A DNA stretch of 49,966 nucleotides, taken from contig JAFLCC010000019.1 of the NCBI GenBank assembly GCA_017302835.1, positions 1 to 49,966 of the forward strand, in the 5' to 3' direction. The DNA comes from Deltaproteobacteria bacterium (lineage in GTDB: Bacteria > Bdellovibrionota > Bdellovibrionia > Bdellovibrionales > Bdellovibrionaceae). Under the pieces are notes generated by a model. That model did no database searches and was not told the origin of the DNA. It saw only the letters and a list, made by a program, of their open reading frames with translations. The translations under genes were made by a program, and so were the position numbers. Shown here piece after piece: positions 12,503 through 17,650 of this stretch (position 1 is its first letter; every line of letters begins with the position of its first letter).

Positions 12503-13354
12503 ATGAATACTTTTTTAAGGAAATCAATAAAACGTAAGTTCATCTCCAGTTCTCTGATTCTATTTCAACTGTTTCATCCGGGTTGTATACACACTTCATC
12601 TCATGAATATAGAAATATAGAGATTCCTTCTCGTAAAGGACTTAGCGAGCAAAATTTCGGTGAAATAAAAGTAGATAGTGCCATTTATTTACCTTCAAAG
12701 TTTCCATTAACTGATTTTTTTAGTCGTTTGAAAAAGGGAGAATTTACTGATGCTTTTAAACGTATTGATCTTGAATACAAACAATCAACTATCAATGATA
12801 AGGTATTGGAGCAAATTATAGACAGTGGTTTTATACCAGTTTATGTTGAGATAAAAAATCAAGGGAAAAAACCTATTCATATTGATGAAAAAAGCTTTGC
12901 TCTGACAAATTTTGCAAATGGAACAAATGGAACAAGCGGAACAAACGGAAAACAAGAAATCAAGGCGTTCTACTCTGAAACTTTACCCCGGGAATTTACG
13001 AAATTTAATACAAGTGCCGCTGCGGCCAATGTGATAAATACGGGTATAGTTATTGTGGGTTTTGCTGCGGTTCTAGCTGGAATGTTAATTATTACGAGTG
13101 CTTCGTCCGCAGGAAGCTTGAGCTTCCCCAATTTTCATCCCAATGGCAACTCATCTGATATTAAGGTTTTCAATGATATAACTACAGTTACAAAAGTAAA
13201 CTATAATTCATTTTTAATAACCTCTTCGGTTCTAAATCCAGGTGAAAGTAAAAATGGGCTTTTATTTTTTTACACTCAAGATTTAGTAGGAATTCATGAA
13301 TTTAAACTGATTTTTCAGCCAACGATCAACCCCAACAAAAAAAATCAATATTGA
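12503..13354 (+). CDS. putative lipoprotein of unknown function
   Basis: 283 aa. A basic n-region (RKSIKRKF) and a hydrophobic stretch end in LFHPGC, a plausible lipobox with Cys near residue 28, suggesting a lipid-anchored envelope protein. The middle carries a low-complexity NGTNGTSGTNG repeat coded by 15-bp units. A further hydrophobic segment (VIVGFAAVLAGMLIITSASSA) could be a membrane helix or a glycine-zipper-like region. I recognise no family. The 3' end overlaps the convergent TIGR02147-type gene by 29 bases, so the two transcripts are antisense at their ends. Confidence 0.65.
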   Translation: MNTFLRKSIKRKFISSSLILFQLFHPGCIHTSSHEYRNIEIPSRKGLSEQNFGEIKVDSAIYLPSKFPLTDFFSRLKKGEFTDAFKRIDLEYKQSTINDKVLEQIIDSGFIPVYVEIKNQGKKPIHIDEKSFALTNFANGTNGTSGTNGKQEIKAFYSETLPREFTKFNTSAAAANVINTGIVIVGFAAVLAGMLIITSASSAGSLSFPNFHPNGNSSDIKVFNDITTVTKVNYNSFLITSSVLNPGESKNGLLFFYTQDLVGIHEFKLIFQPTINPNKKNQY

Positions 13355-14153
13355 GTTGATAAACCTGTTCAGATTTTTGTTTCACGACTTCGGTTTGTGT
13401 TTCTTTAATGAGATCAAGTAATTTCTTTTTTAAAATATTCTGGAATTTTAGTTCTGAAGAAAAAATTACAGAAAAGAAGTAATCTTCAGTAGAGTCGAGT
13501 TTAGTTTTTTTAATTTTTTCAATGGTTTTGATCCGGTTTAAAATGCTGAATATTTGAAAGACAGGTGAATCTTCTGGAAGATGGAGATTGGGATCTGTTG
13601 TCAAATATTTATTGTTTTTACTTTGAACAAGATTCCAGTCTTTGAGCTTATTAATTAAGAGAAAAAGCCTATTTTTTTCAATACCAATTTTATCACAGAT
13701 AAGTTCTGGATTTTTTGAGTACTGAGGAATTGTAAGAAAAAGATGAATAAGTTGTAATTCAATATTAGTAAAATATTCCCATTTATGGGGCTCGACAGAT
13801 TCCAGAGAATGACTTCGAATTTCCGATGTTATTTTTAGCTTATCAATACGTATTCTATTGATTTTTTTATTTAATAAGTCACCTCTTTTGGCATTGAGAG
13901 CTATTTCTGACTCTCTTAAAAGCAAAAGGAATTCAATTTCATCGAGAGACAGTTTTAAGTACTCACAAGCTGAAAAAAGTTGGTCAGGATTTAGATGAAC
14001 ATGACTATTCATCACTTTCGAAAGATATGTTTTTTGGACTCCGCAATGAATGGCCATTTTTTCAAATGTAAATTTGCCACCAAATATTTGTCGCCTATAG
14101 GACATGAAAGCTTTTAAAGCTTTTTTGTAATTATCAAAATCATATAAATTCAT
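13326..14153 (-). CDS. TIGR02147-family regulator
   Basis: 275 aa. The N-terminus, NLYDFDNYKKALKAFMSYRR followed by KMAIHCGVQKTYLSKVMNSHVHLNPDQLFSACEYLKLSLDEIEFLLLL, is the characteristic start of TIGR02147 proteins, a helix-turn-helix family found mainly in Bdellovibrio and Fibrobacter. A second winged-helix-like region follows (LICDKIGIEKNRLFLLINKLKDWNLV). Usually they are thought to act as transcription factors, but targets are mostly unknown. Its gene is divergent from the secreted-protein/metalloprotease pair, with a 24-bp perfect palindrome in the shared promoter region, so control of those genes and of itself is likely. Confidence 0.85.
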   Translation of the reverse strand: MNLYDFDNYKKALKAFMSYRRQIFGGKFTFEKMAIHCGVQKTYLSKVMNSHVHLNPDQLFSACEYLKLSLDEIEFLLLLRESEIALNAKRGDLLNKKINRIRIDKLKITSEIRSHSLESVEPHKWEYFTNIELQLIHLFLTIPQYSKNPELICDKIGIEKNRLFLLINKLKDWNLVQSKNNKYLTTDPNLHLPEDSPVFQIFSILNRIKTIEKIKKTKLDSTEDYFFSVIFSSELKFQNILKKKLLDLIKETQTEVVKQKSEQVYQLNIDFFCWG

Positions 14154-14180
14154 AAGTTTACCTTTAGTATAATAAAATCT

Positions 14181-14204
14181 TATTAATTAGTTAACTAATT
14201 AATA
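14181..14204. promoter_or_regulatory. 24-bp perfect palindrome, candidate operator
   Basis: The half-site TATTAATTAGTT is followed at once by its exact reverse complement, with no spacer. It lies 28 bases upstream of the TIGR02147 start and 76 bases upstream of the secreted protein at 14280, in the divergent promoter region. TAGTATAAT (14166-14174) next to it could serve as a -10 element. The position suits a dimeric regulator acting on both promoters. Confidence 0.65.
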
Positions 14205-14279
14205 TACTACCAGAAGTGAAAATGGCAATACTATCTTAGAAACAAAGCTTAACAATATATTTCATAAAAGGAGAAATAG

Positions 14280-14621
14280 ATGAAAAAGGCATTATTAATA
14301 ATTGTAACACTGATTACTGCAATTTCACAGGCAAGTGTTTATAGCTGTAATATTTCAAGATCCAGTGCTAATAAAGCGCCAGATGTATGGAGTTTTATTT
14401 TTGATACAGAAAAAGAAAATAGTAAATTTATCGATATAGACATCGAACAACAGACTAAGGCGGGGTGTGTGGTATTAAGAGCTTCAAAAGTATATTTAAG
14501 TTGTGCGTATGGAAGTGAAAAAAATTCAGTGTTTTCTTCTGTTGAAGATGGTACGGCCGTATTTTCTTTCGTGTCTAGAAATGAAAGTGGATTTACCCTT
14601 TTAAGTTGTGTAAAACAGTAA
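14280..14621 (+). CDS. small secreted protein, unknown function
   Basis: 113 aa with an AAAGGAG Shine-Dalgarno. The signal peptide is MKKALLIIVTLITAISQAS, with likely cleavage near QAS/VYS. The mature part has four cysteines (YSCN, AGCVV, LSCAYG, LLSCVK), suggesting two disulfides. It is followed after 21 bases by a secreted metalloprotease and is probably cotranscribed with it; it could be an inhibitor, chaperone or co-factor of that enzyme, but this is only inferred from the linkage. No family recognised. Confidence 0.7.
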   Translation: MKKALLIIVTLITAISQASVYSCNISRSSANKAPDVWSFIFDTEKENSKFIDIDIEQQTKAGCVVLRASKVYLSCAYGSEKNSVFSSVEDGTAVFSFVSRNESGFTLLSCVKQ

Positions 14622-14642: not shown

Positions 14643-15803
14643 ATGAATTTTATAAAATTATTATTTTCGCTTACCTTGTTTCATTCAATGTCATTCGCTG
14701 CAGGGGGATGGGTCAGTGGAGGTGGGGAGCTATTAAAGGATTCACATAACCCTTGGTTTATAAACAACACTTCGGATGTTTTTTACTGTGTTATAATTGA
14801 TGAAGCTAATTTTGGGGCTTCAAGTGAAACCATAGAAAGAAATCTTGAGTTAGCGATTAATTACTGGAAATCTGAATTTAATTTTGCAATAACCCCTGAA
14901 TTCAAACATTTTGGAAAACTAAAAATAGCTTCACAAACCTTTATTAAGGTACCATGTCATGAAAAAAAAGTTAACATTCGTTTTCAGTTTGGTTACCTTG
15001 AAAAAGATCAAAAAAATTACTTAAGAAGTCCTAAGAAATATGCAGCGGTTACAGTAAGAACTGATTACGATCCAATAAATTTAAAGGCTAAAGGTTTTGT
15101 CTACCTGTCGCCTTCTCAGGGAGCTTTGGCCTATAATTCTGAAGGTGTAGCTAGAAATGCCTGGAGTCTGAATGATGGAAATTTGTTATACGTTACCTTA
15201 ATTCATGAATTAGGACATGTTTTTGGCTTGCCCCATATAGGAACTATGGGGGTATTGATGTCCGAAGGGTTTGTTGAATTGATGTTAAGGCAAAATAAAT
15301 TACCTGATGCAAGATTGGCGGAAATTTCCTTTTTTTCTTTGATGAAAAAAACTCGGGTTATTTGCCCTCTGGAACCTTTGTTAATTGTTTGGAGAAAATT
15401 CTTTGATTTGGAAGAGACGGATAAATGTATGAGATTTGATTTTGAGCATTTAAAGGCGAATCAGATTTTTGGTGTGAGTTATTTAAAACTATTTTCAGGA
15501 GAAACGAGTGACAGCCTGACACAAAAGCCCTATCAAATTCCTTTAACCATGTTCAAATTTAATCCTGTATTTCCAAATTTAATTTGGTTACCAGAAAATC
15601 AAGTAGTTTTTCAGCCAAGTGAGTTCATTCAAGGTCTTCAGGGAGTTCTTGGAGCTGCCCTCGTTTCCATTGCCAAGAAAGGGAATTTTGTTTCAGCAAG
15701 AAATGGCGCAAAAAGAAATATAGCCATTAAATTTGAACAGGGCAAAGAAGGTGTTGGTATCGAAGGTGTCGACGAGACCGGAGAAATCATATCTTTGCTG
15801 TAG
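14643..15803 (+). CDS. secreted matrixin-like zinc metalloprotease
   Basis: 386 aa with signal peptide (MNFIKLLFSLTLFHSMSFAAGG). The zinc motif HELGHVFGLPH (HExxHxxGxxH, about residues 190-200) is the metzincin signature. It is followed after a short loop by GVLMSEG, a plausible Met-turn. About 180 further residues of unknown fold follow. Matrixins of this kind are extracellular or periplasmic peptidases. In a predatory bacterium, degradation of prey protein is one possible role. There is no recognisable cysteine-switch propeptide. The gene sits in the operon controlled from the palindromic region at 14181. Confidence 0.8.
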   Translation: MNFIKLLFSLTLFHSMSFAAGGWVSGGGELLKDSHNPWFINNTSDVFYCVIIDEANFGASSETIERNLELAINYWKSEFNFAITPEFKHFGKLKIASQTFIKVPCHEKKVNIRFQFGYLEKDQKNYLRSPKKYAAVTVRTDYDPINLKAKGFVYLSPSQGALAYNSEGVARNAWSLNDGNLLYVTLIHELGHVFGLPHIGTMGVLMSEGFVELMLRQNKLPDARLAEISFFSLMKKTRVICPLEPLLIVWRKFFDLEETDKCMRFDFEHLKANQIFGVSYLKLFSGETSDSLTQKPYQIPLTMFKFNPVFPNLIWLPENQVVFQPSEFIQGLQGVLGAALVSIAKKGNFVSARNGAKRNIAIKFEQGKEGVGIEGVDETGEIISLL

Positions 15804-16411: not shown

Positions 16412-16476
16412 CAATATTTTGATAAAATATTGGAGTTGACTCCAAAATGTTCATGAATATAATGGAGTTGACTCCA
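16412..16476 (+). promoter_or_regulatory. near-consensus promoter flanked by repeated palindromes
   Basis: TTGACT (16436-16441) and TATAAT (16458-16463) are 16 bases apart. The 14-bp inverted repeat TGGAGT-TG-ACTCCA occurs twice, at 16431-16444 over the -35 and at 16463-16476 directly after the -10, as part of a 32-bp direct repeat. Just upstream CAATATTTT-GAT-AAAATATTG (16412-16432) forms a perfect 9-bp stem overlapping the first palindrome. The Shine-Dalgarno TTAGGAGGGG follows at about 16504. This looks like a strong promoter shut by a dimeric repressor at two sites. Confidence 0.75.
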
Positions 16477-16519
16477 AAATATTCATGATGTCGTTTTTCA
16501 AGTTAGGAGGGGTTTTGTC

Positions 16520-17650
16520 ATGATTAAAACAAGGTATCTCAGGGGAACTATCGAGGAATTTCTGAGAAAAAAGATGGTTTTTTTGGGGGGACCACGGCAG
16601 GTTGGAAAGACCACCCTTTGTCTGAGTTTTTTGGAGCCACCTGATGTACGAAATCCAGCCTATCTCAACTGGGATGAGGTGGGAACCAGGAGTCTTTTGC
16701 GTCAGGGCAAGTTGCCGACAGATCGAATTCTGGTTCTTGATGAAATTCACAAATATAAGCTTTGGCGTGGACTTATCAAAGGATTTTATGATGCCAACAA
16801 AGGGTATCAAGACTATCTGGTGACAGGCTCGGCTCGTCTGGATCACTATCGTAAGGGCGGTGATTCTTTGCTTGGGCGTTACCGGTACCTTCGACTTCAT
16901 CCTTTTTCAGTGAGCGAATTAAAAATTCAAAATTCTGCAAATCTAGAAAGCCTTTTAAGATTTGGTGGGTTCCCTGAACCATTTTTTGCTCAATCGACAA
17001 GGGATCATAAATTATGGTGTGCAGAAAGAATATACCGTGTTGTGAATGACGACATTTCTGATCTTGAAAATCTAAAAGACTATTCTCGATTAGAATTATT
17101 GGCTGAAATTCTGAAAGAAAGAGTGGGGTCTCTTTTTTCTGCAAAATCCCTTGAGGAAGACCTACAAGTATCCCAAAAGACAGTGATTCATTGGGTAGAA
17201 ATATTAGAAAGAGTTTACTATCTTTATCGAATTTATCCTTTTGGAGCCCCTAAGATAAGAGCGCTAAAAAAGACACCAAAAATTTTTTTGTGGGATTGGA
17301 GTGAGGTGGAAAACCCTGGAGCACGTTTTGAAAATTTAGTTGCAGGTCATCTTTTAAAATATTGCCACTTTCTTGAAGATACAGAGGGTGAAAAAATGGA
17401 GTTGAGATATTTACGTGACACCGATCATCGTGAGGTTGATTTTGTGGTTCTGAAAAACAAGAAACCCATTTTTGCAGTAGAGTGTAAAACGGGTGATCGT
17501 CAAGTCTCAAAGTCCATCTTGTACTTCAAGGAGAGGACCAACGTTCCACAATTTTTTCAAGTGCATCTGGGGGCATCAGACTATCTATCCAAGGAAGGCG
17601 TTCGAGTCATTCCATTTGTTAAATTTTGTAATGAATTAAAATTACCTTAA
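16520..17650 (+). CDS. AAA (AAA_14) ATPase with DUF4143 domain
   Basis: 376 aa. Walker A is FLGGPRQVGKTTL (about residues 21-33), Walker B RILVLDEIHK (about 74-83), and sensor LVTGSAR follows. The middle has a winged-helix-like segment (KSLEEDLQVSQKTVIHWVEILERVYYLYRI). The C-terminus is DUF4143, with REVDFVVLKNKKPIFAVECKTG, which resembles the D-ExK core of restriction-endonuclease-fold proteins. These ATPases are widespread, often sporadic and mobile, and their role is unknown; stress, toxin or mobile-element roles have been proposed. Here it is a single gene with an unusually strong, palindrome-covered promoter. Confidence 0.88.
   Translation: MIKTRYLRGTIEEFLRKKMVFLGGPRQVGKTTLCLSFLEPPDVRNPAYLNWDEVGTRSLLRQGKLPTDRILVLDEIHKYKLWRGLIKGFYDANKGYQDYLVTGSARLDHYRKGGDSLLGRYRYLRLHPFSVSELKIQNSANLESLLRFGGFPEPFFAQSTRDHKLWCAERIYRVVNDDISDLENLKDYSRLELLAEILKERVGSLFSAKSLEEDLQVSQKTVIHWVEILERVYYLYRIYPFGAPKIRALKKTPKIFLWDWSEVENPGARFENLVAGHLLKYCHFLEDTEGEKMELRYLRDTDHREVDFVVLKNKKPIFAVECKTGDRQVSKSILYFKERTNVPQFFQVHLGASDYLSKEGVRVIPFVKFCNELKLP

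Follow-up and report, generated by a model that had tools for sequence, protein, structure and literature searches.

An 18-bp sequence core, overlapping a perfect 24-bp palindrome between divergent genes for a DUF4423 regulator and a secreted protease operon, was found in 9 of 15 orthologous intergenic regions, and the palindrome region is probably the operator of that regulator. The direct basis of this reading is the sequence itself, the core in these syntenic orthologs, a site upstream of an unlinked protease gene and the rarity of the element elsewhere in these genomes. The window, the whole stretch of DNA that was analysed, comprises 49,966 nucleotides of a contig from the Bdellovibrionaceae. 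Its relevant features are as follows.

13326-14153, minus strand: DUF4423 regulator, 275 aa, with a predicted XRE-like helix-turn-helix (HTH; residues ~5-92), a predicted winged-helix-like domain (~118-191) and a low-confidence C-terminus
14166-14171, minus strand: predicted regulator -10 element, TATACT, with a 17-nt spacer (consensus scan)
14181-14204, no strand: palindrome TATTAATTAGTTAACTAATTAATA, 24 bp, perfect, centred between GTT and AAC; candidate operator
14189-14194, minus strand: predicted regulator -35 element, TTAACT, inside the palindrome (a consensus scan result, not evidence of function)
14190-14207, minus strand: conserved core GTATATTAATTAGTTAAC, 18 bp, overlapping the palindrome and extending 3 bp beyond it; consensus GTAWATTAWTTRGTTAAY, with the R sometimes absent
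14203-14208, plus strand: possible -10 element of the protease operon, TATACT, overlapping the palindrome edge and read from the sequence
14280-14621, plus strand: first ORF of the putative target operon, coding for 113 aa with an N-terminus that reads as signal-peptide-like
14643-15803, plus strand: secreted metzincin-type protease, 386 aa, with HELGHVFGLPH; conserved partner and second gene of the operon

The locus and its palindrome

Both plus-strand products (113 aa and 386 aa) have N-terminal starts that read as signal-peptide-like. The protease scores 25.6 bits against the Matrixin profile (cut-off, 24) and contains the HExxHxxGxxH motif, which places it in Matrixin M10. A preliminary description of this DNA had referred to a metalloprotease operon; the protease is indeed present, but it is the second gene, behind that for the 113-aa protein, which is replaced or missing in several orthologs. 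The predicted -10 element of the regulator promoter is kept in orthologs L019, L020 (as TACACT) and L091. The TATACT on the plus strand has a poor -35 element (TTATTA, a 3/6 match, at 17 nt), and the consensus promoter scan reported no plus-strand promoter at 14203-14208. Further along the window, 25-bp direct repeats of GGAGTTGACTCCAAAATRTTCATGA are present at 16432-16456 and 16464-16488, 32 bp apart and each with a GGAGT-TG-ACTCC dyad, directly upstream of an ATPase-like ORF (16520-17650, with a GGPRQVGKTT motif). The sequence TGGAGTTGACTCCA, taken from these repeats, has no other occurrence in the genome, and the repeats at 16432-16488 look like a private tandem operator.

The palindrome TATTAATTAGTTAACTAATTAATA is a 12+12 perfect dyad without a spacer and lies inside the 126-bp gap separating the divergent ORFs at 13326-14153 and 14280-14621, exactly as had been described before. 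It is the longest perfect palindrome of the window, the runner-up being 18 bp long (2670-2687) and located within an ORF. Under a second-order Markov model of the window, 20-bp palindromes occurred at 0.05 per 50 kb and none longer was seen in 40 runs; given the local base composition, the expected count of palindromes of at least 24 bp in the 126-bp gap is ~1.3e-4. The earlier statement that such a palindrome is unlikely by chance holds under these models but was too strong for real DNA, as 400 kb of other sampled regions of the same genome contained 4 perfect palindromes of at least 24 bp (~1 per 100 kb). Length by itself is, therefore, weak evidence and does not prove function.

The palindrome is single-copy in the genome. 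Searching the same genome with 2 to 3 mismatches gave a few additional matches; those inspected were mostly inside or between unrelated genes, and on these grounds a wider regulon is not proposed for this genome. Two other palindromes were observed. A perfect 46-bp palindrome, ATTTAATCTGCAATTTTGGATCATGATCCAAAATTGCAGATTAAAT, occurs elsewhere in the genome (L191, 19558-19603), and TATTTTAAGCTTAAAATA begins at base 4-9 of contigs C3, C5 and C9 (L179, L185 and L188; first 26 bases), a palindrome shared by these contig ends and probably a repeat by which the assembly was interrupted.

Conservation of the core in orthologous intergenic regions

Regulator relatives were gathered from genus, family, order and named genomes. 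At 15 syntenic loci, the divergent neighbour was the same protease (SGGGELLKD...NPWF or a variant), either immediately adjacent or behind a small secreted protein. The core, which was defined after looking at the sites, was present in nine of these 15 intergenic regions, which come from different families of the order. Read toward the regulator gene, it is GTATATTAATTAGTTAAC in the window, the identical 18 bases in L019, GTAAATTAACTAGTTAAC in L020, GTAAATTATTTAGTTAAT in L021, GTAAATTATTTGTTAAT in L048, GTTAATTAATTGTTAAT in L049, GTAAATTAATTGTTAAT in L091, ATCAATTAATTAGTTAAT in L233 and GTAAATTAATTAGTTGTG in L235; the last two are from named metagenome-assembled genomes of Oligoflexales and Pseudobacteriovorax, respectively. 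A clear copy of the core was absent at this position in the other six syntenic orthologs (L051, L052, L097, L231, L232 and L239).

Conservation in orthologous promoters had been proposed as a check on the palindrome, and the outcome differed between the core and the full dyad. In the nearest ortholog, L019 (59% amino acid identity), GTATATTAATTAGTTAAC is kept letter for letter and the second arm is lost: the left arm and centre remain, and CATTTTTTA replaces the TAATTAATA of the window. Neither L019 nor L020 has a dyad, and the perfect 24-bp symmetry is not conserved. The conserved unit, as judged from these alignments, is the 18-bp core at 14190-14207 and not the 24-bp perfection. L049 and L091, which come from different families, are near-identical across ~26 bases, while their flanks do not align. 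A motif search with one site per sequence in six divergent intergenic regions returned a 16-bp block of 21.1 bits, compared with 16.5 ± 0.64 bits (maximum, 18.2) in 60 shuffled sets. The hexamer GTTAAC was found upstream of 9/12 regulators of the clade and of 0/105 control genes from the window's own genome.

Dyads are also present in L048, L049, L091, L094 and L273, with spacing that varies among orthologs. That of L049 and L091 is AATTAATT-GTT-AATTAATT, and that of the paralog L094 is GAGTTAACTATTAGTTAACTC. L048 has a second site, AAAGTTAACAATTAGTTAACTTT, located at -47 to -21 from the regulator start and downstream of the conserved core; this second site is a dyad with the same core, AAAGTTAAC-AATTA-GTTAACTTT. 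In L021, L233 and L235, too, the regulator promoter is overlain by a second site of the GTTAAC type.

A site upstream of an unlinked protease gene

A degenerate pattern built from the known sites, TTAACN{0,1}ARWTAATWWAC, was used to scan 141 genomes of the order (~0.4 Gb). The pattern gave 24 matches and a reversed control pattern gave 33; hence, any enrichment is one of position only and not of number. Seven of the 24 matches were the clade intergenic regions used to build the pattern. The eighth came from outside that set and had not been anticipated; in this single case, a second protease gene of genome G065 (C23) has the match 68 nt upstream. No DUF4423 gene was found around this site in the 19.5 kb read (8.8 kb before and 9.4 kb after), and the regulator of this genome is on another contig, beside the first protease gene. 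The unlinked site has the form of an inverted repeat, 11+11, with the sequence AAAGTTAATTA-ACAAA-TAATTAACTTT. By our own estimate, the chance of a stray match within 200 bp upstream of any other protease gene is ~2e-4. As the second protease gene has the site without a DUF4423 neighbour, the element thus appears to go with the target gene as well as with the regulator gene, and this supports an operator that would work both in cis and in trans. The earlier suggestion of a candidate operator is, therefore, sustained for the core, which is conserved and recurs at the unlinked protease gene, but not for the full 24-bp symmetry.

Pairing of regulator and protease

Regulators of this type were present in 20/24 genomes with the protease family and in 18/117 others (Fisher's test, 2e-10). 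Of 31 protease matches, 21 had a listed DUF4423 gene no more than 2.5 kb away, in divergent order in 12 cases, and wider reading gave further neighbouring pairs, e.g., L276, L279, L280 and L283. In L283 (G107), a 17.7-bit match to the core was observed at 1891-2000 between a divergent protease gene and a DUF4423 gene that does not belong to the clade; this locus was left out of the counts because its HTH differs. The motif was found with 7/11 regulators having a QKTY helix and with 3/116 others, an association confounded by descent; one of the three, L091, is actually QKTY, its start having been mis-read. The window's own genome has a second divergent DUF4423/protease pair (C5:226000-230500, L285) without the motif, and this pair probably has its own separate operator.

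The regulator protein

The regulator scores 44.2 bits against Pfam DUF4423 (PF14394; gathering cut-off, 30) and 18.2 bits against NCBIfam TIGR02147 (Fsuc_second; cut-off, 50; E, 0.0013), with residues 1-272 aligned in the latter case. The previous assignment to TIGR02147 was, accordingly, replaced: because its cut-off is not reached, DUF4423 is the better family label. Against HTH_3 the score is 14 bits (cut-off, 23). An AlphaFold2 model (mean pLDDT, 81; pTM, 0.42), of low confidence in its C-terminal part, contains two predicted DNA-binding-like domains. Residues ~5-92 of the model are similar to XRE repressors, among them P22 c2 bound to its operator (Z, 8.1; rmsd, 2.0; 66 residues), and the stretch at ~118-191 is similar to winged helices of the ArsR/MarR kind (Z up to 8.9); these Z values are middling. 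Foldseek with the model found nothing at an E value of ≤0.001, and a sequence search of solved structures gave nothing significant, with weak HTH matches only.

Proposed mechanism and alternatives

These comparisons of sequence give good support to the operator reading as far as the core is concerned. In the mechanism that we propose, a protein dimer would bind the AT-rich dyad around GTTAAC, most likely via the XRE-type N-terminal HTH. The bound dimer would cover the predicted -35 element of the regulator's own promoter and, in addition, a segment that abuts the possible -10 element of the protease operon on its upstream side. With elements of both promoters lying under a protein bound to 14181-14207, synthesis of the regulator and of the secreted protease would be controlled together by the regulator. 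In the simplest form, it would be a repressor of both promoters, with autoregulation, and would be freed by some signal. The regulator probably does repress both divergent promoters; we infer this polarity (repression over activation), as we do binding, dimerisation, the promoter positions and the signal.

A DUF4423 protein might, instead, bind here and activate the protease operon, perhaps while repressing itself, a proposal that differs from the operator reading in polarity only and that we consider rather unlikely. Activation could, for example, compensate for the weak -35 element of the plus strand, and the failure of the consensus scan to report a promoter there would fit with this, whereas the site would be at about -11 to -34 of the putative plus-strand promoter, a position from which most regulators, when bound, block polymerase. 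It is improbable that the block is the operator of another, unlinked transcription factor controlling both the protease and the DUF4423 gene. Such a factor would account for the G065 protease gene having a site without an adjoining DUF4423 gene; however, the other placed matches all lie beside DUF4423 genes of this clade, and the concentration of the motif among QKTY regulators, confounded by descent as it is, also speaks against it.

We also give little credence to the block being mere shared promoter sequence, that is, back-to-back -35 and -10 elements in AT-rich DNA with an incidental palindrome. The palindrome does contain a predicted -35 element and touch a possible -10 element, and perfect palindromes of its length occur at the frequency given above in this genome. 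Nevertheless, the block exceeds promoter hexamers in both length and conservation (as in L049 versus L091), TTTAC stands in most orthologs at the place where a -10 element would start with TA, the control upstream regions are without the block, and the block precedes an unlinked protease gene. The perfect inverted symmetry would also suit a structural element, such as a terminator, a cruciform or a relic of a mobile element. This explanation is disfavoured and highly improbable: the terminator scan found no terminator-like site at the palindrome, which is positioned between divergent starts and is present once in the genome, and L019 and L020 conserve one arm only. The reading that we prefer is that of an operator for the divergent DUF4423 regulator.

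The wider DUF4423 family

Genomes of this genus have 9 to 29 DUF4423/TIGR02147 proteins each. A literature search found no operator or binding site described for DUF4423 or TIGR02147, in agreement with the preliminary description, and did not find TIGR02147 named; DUF4423 was named in one paper, which does no more than include the member Bd3700 among those up-regulated as the bacterium grows in prey (PMC12546842). Inverted repeats upstream of 120 DUF4423 genes had a mean z of 1.11, compared with 0.52 for 105 control upstream regions, which came from one genome and had less exact starts (Mann-Whitney, p = 0.002). This excess is modest and too weak alone for a family-wide claim. Among 17 DUF4423 ortholog groups examined for conserved dyads, 5 had p ≤ 0.05 (combined p, 0.007), which is suggestive and may be taken as a lead, not a result. 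Promoter dyads conserved between genomes in other groups were TGTTTCA-N5-TGAAACA and GTTTAC-AAA-GTAAAC; a further group has TGTTT-N9-AAACA, with matched changes on both sides beside it. The GTTTCA/TGAAAC repeats seen upstream of L059, L060 and L064, as conserved TGTTTCA-N5-TGAAACA dyads, belong to an unrelated DUF4423 ortholog group.

As a tentative generalisation, DUF4423/TIGR02147 proteins might form a family in which each member regulates its own gene locally, through a private AT-rich dyad operator within the promoter of that gene, and in most cases also controls a secreted protein encoded next to it. The dyad would be GTTAAC-centred at the present locus and TGTTTCA-N5-TGAAACA or GTTTAC-AAA-GTAAAC elsewhere. 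If this were true, the operators of the whole family could be read by comparing orthologous promoters. The element described here is of an ordinary kind, in an unstudied regulator family. It is a first candidate binding site for DUF4423 regulators, none being on record in the literature searched, and the combination of a candidate operator, a target and a paired regulator makes the function of the family directly testable. Some members of this bacterial group are predators that live off secreted hydrolases, and the target here is itself a secreted protease.

Comparison with known systems

The closest parallels are with the operators of Lambda/P22-type XRE repressors (P22 c2 and synthetic operators; PDB 2r1j and 3jxb). 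In both cases there is an XRE-like HTH, here in a model, and an AT-rich palindromic site over divergent promoters, here predicted, including that of the regulator gene itself. Unlike those repressors, the DUF4423 regulator has a second domain resembling a winged helix (ArsR/MarR-like) and a DUF4423 C-terminus, and, unlike in their operators, the half-site symmetry is loose across orthologs. With TIGR02147 (Fsuc_second) proteins the regulator aligns over its full length, yet below the cut-off. The protease shares the HExxHxxGxxH motif and an above-cut-off score with the Matrixin/metzincin secreted proteases (PF00413) and differs from them in a lineage-specific N-terminal motif, SGGGELLKD...NPWF.
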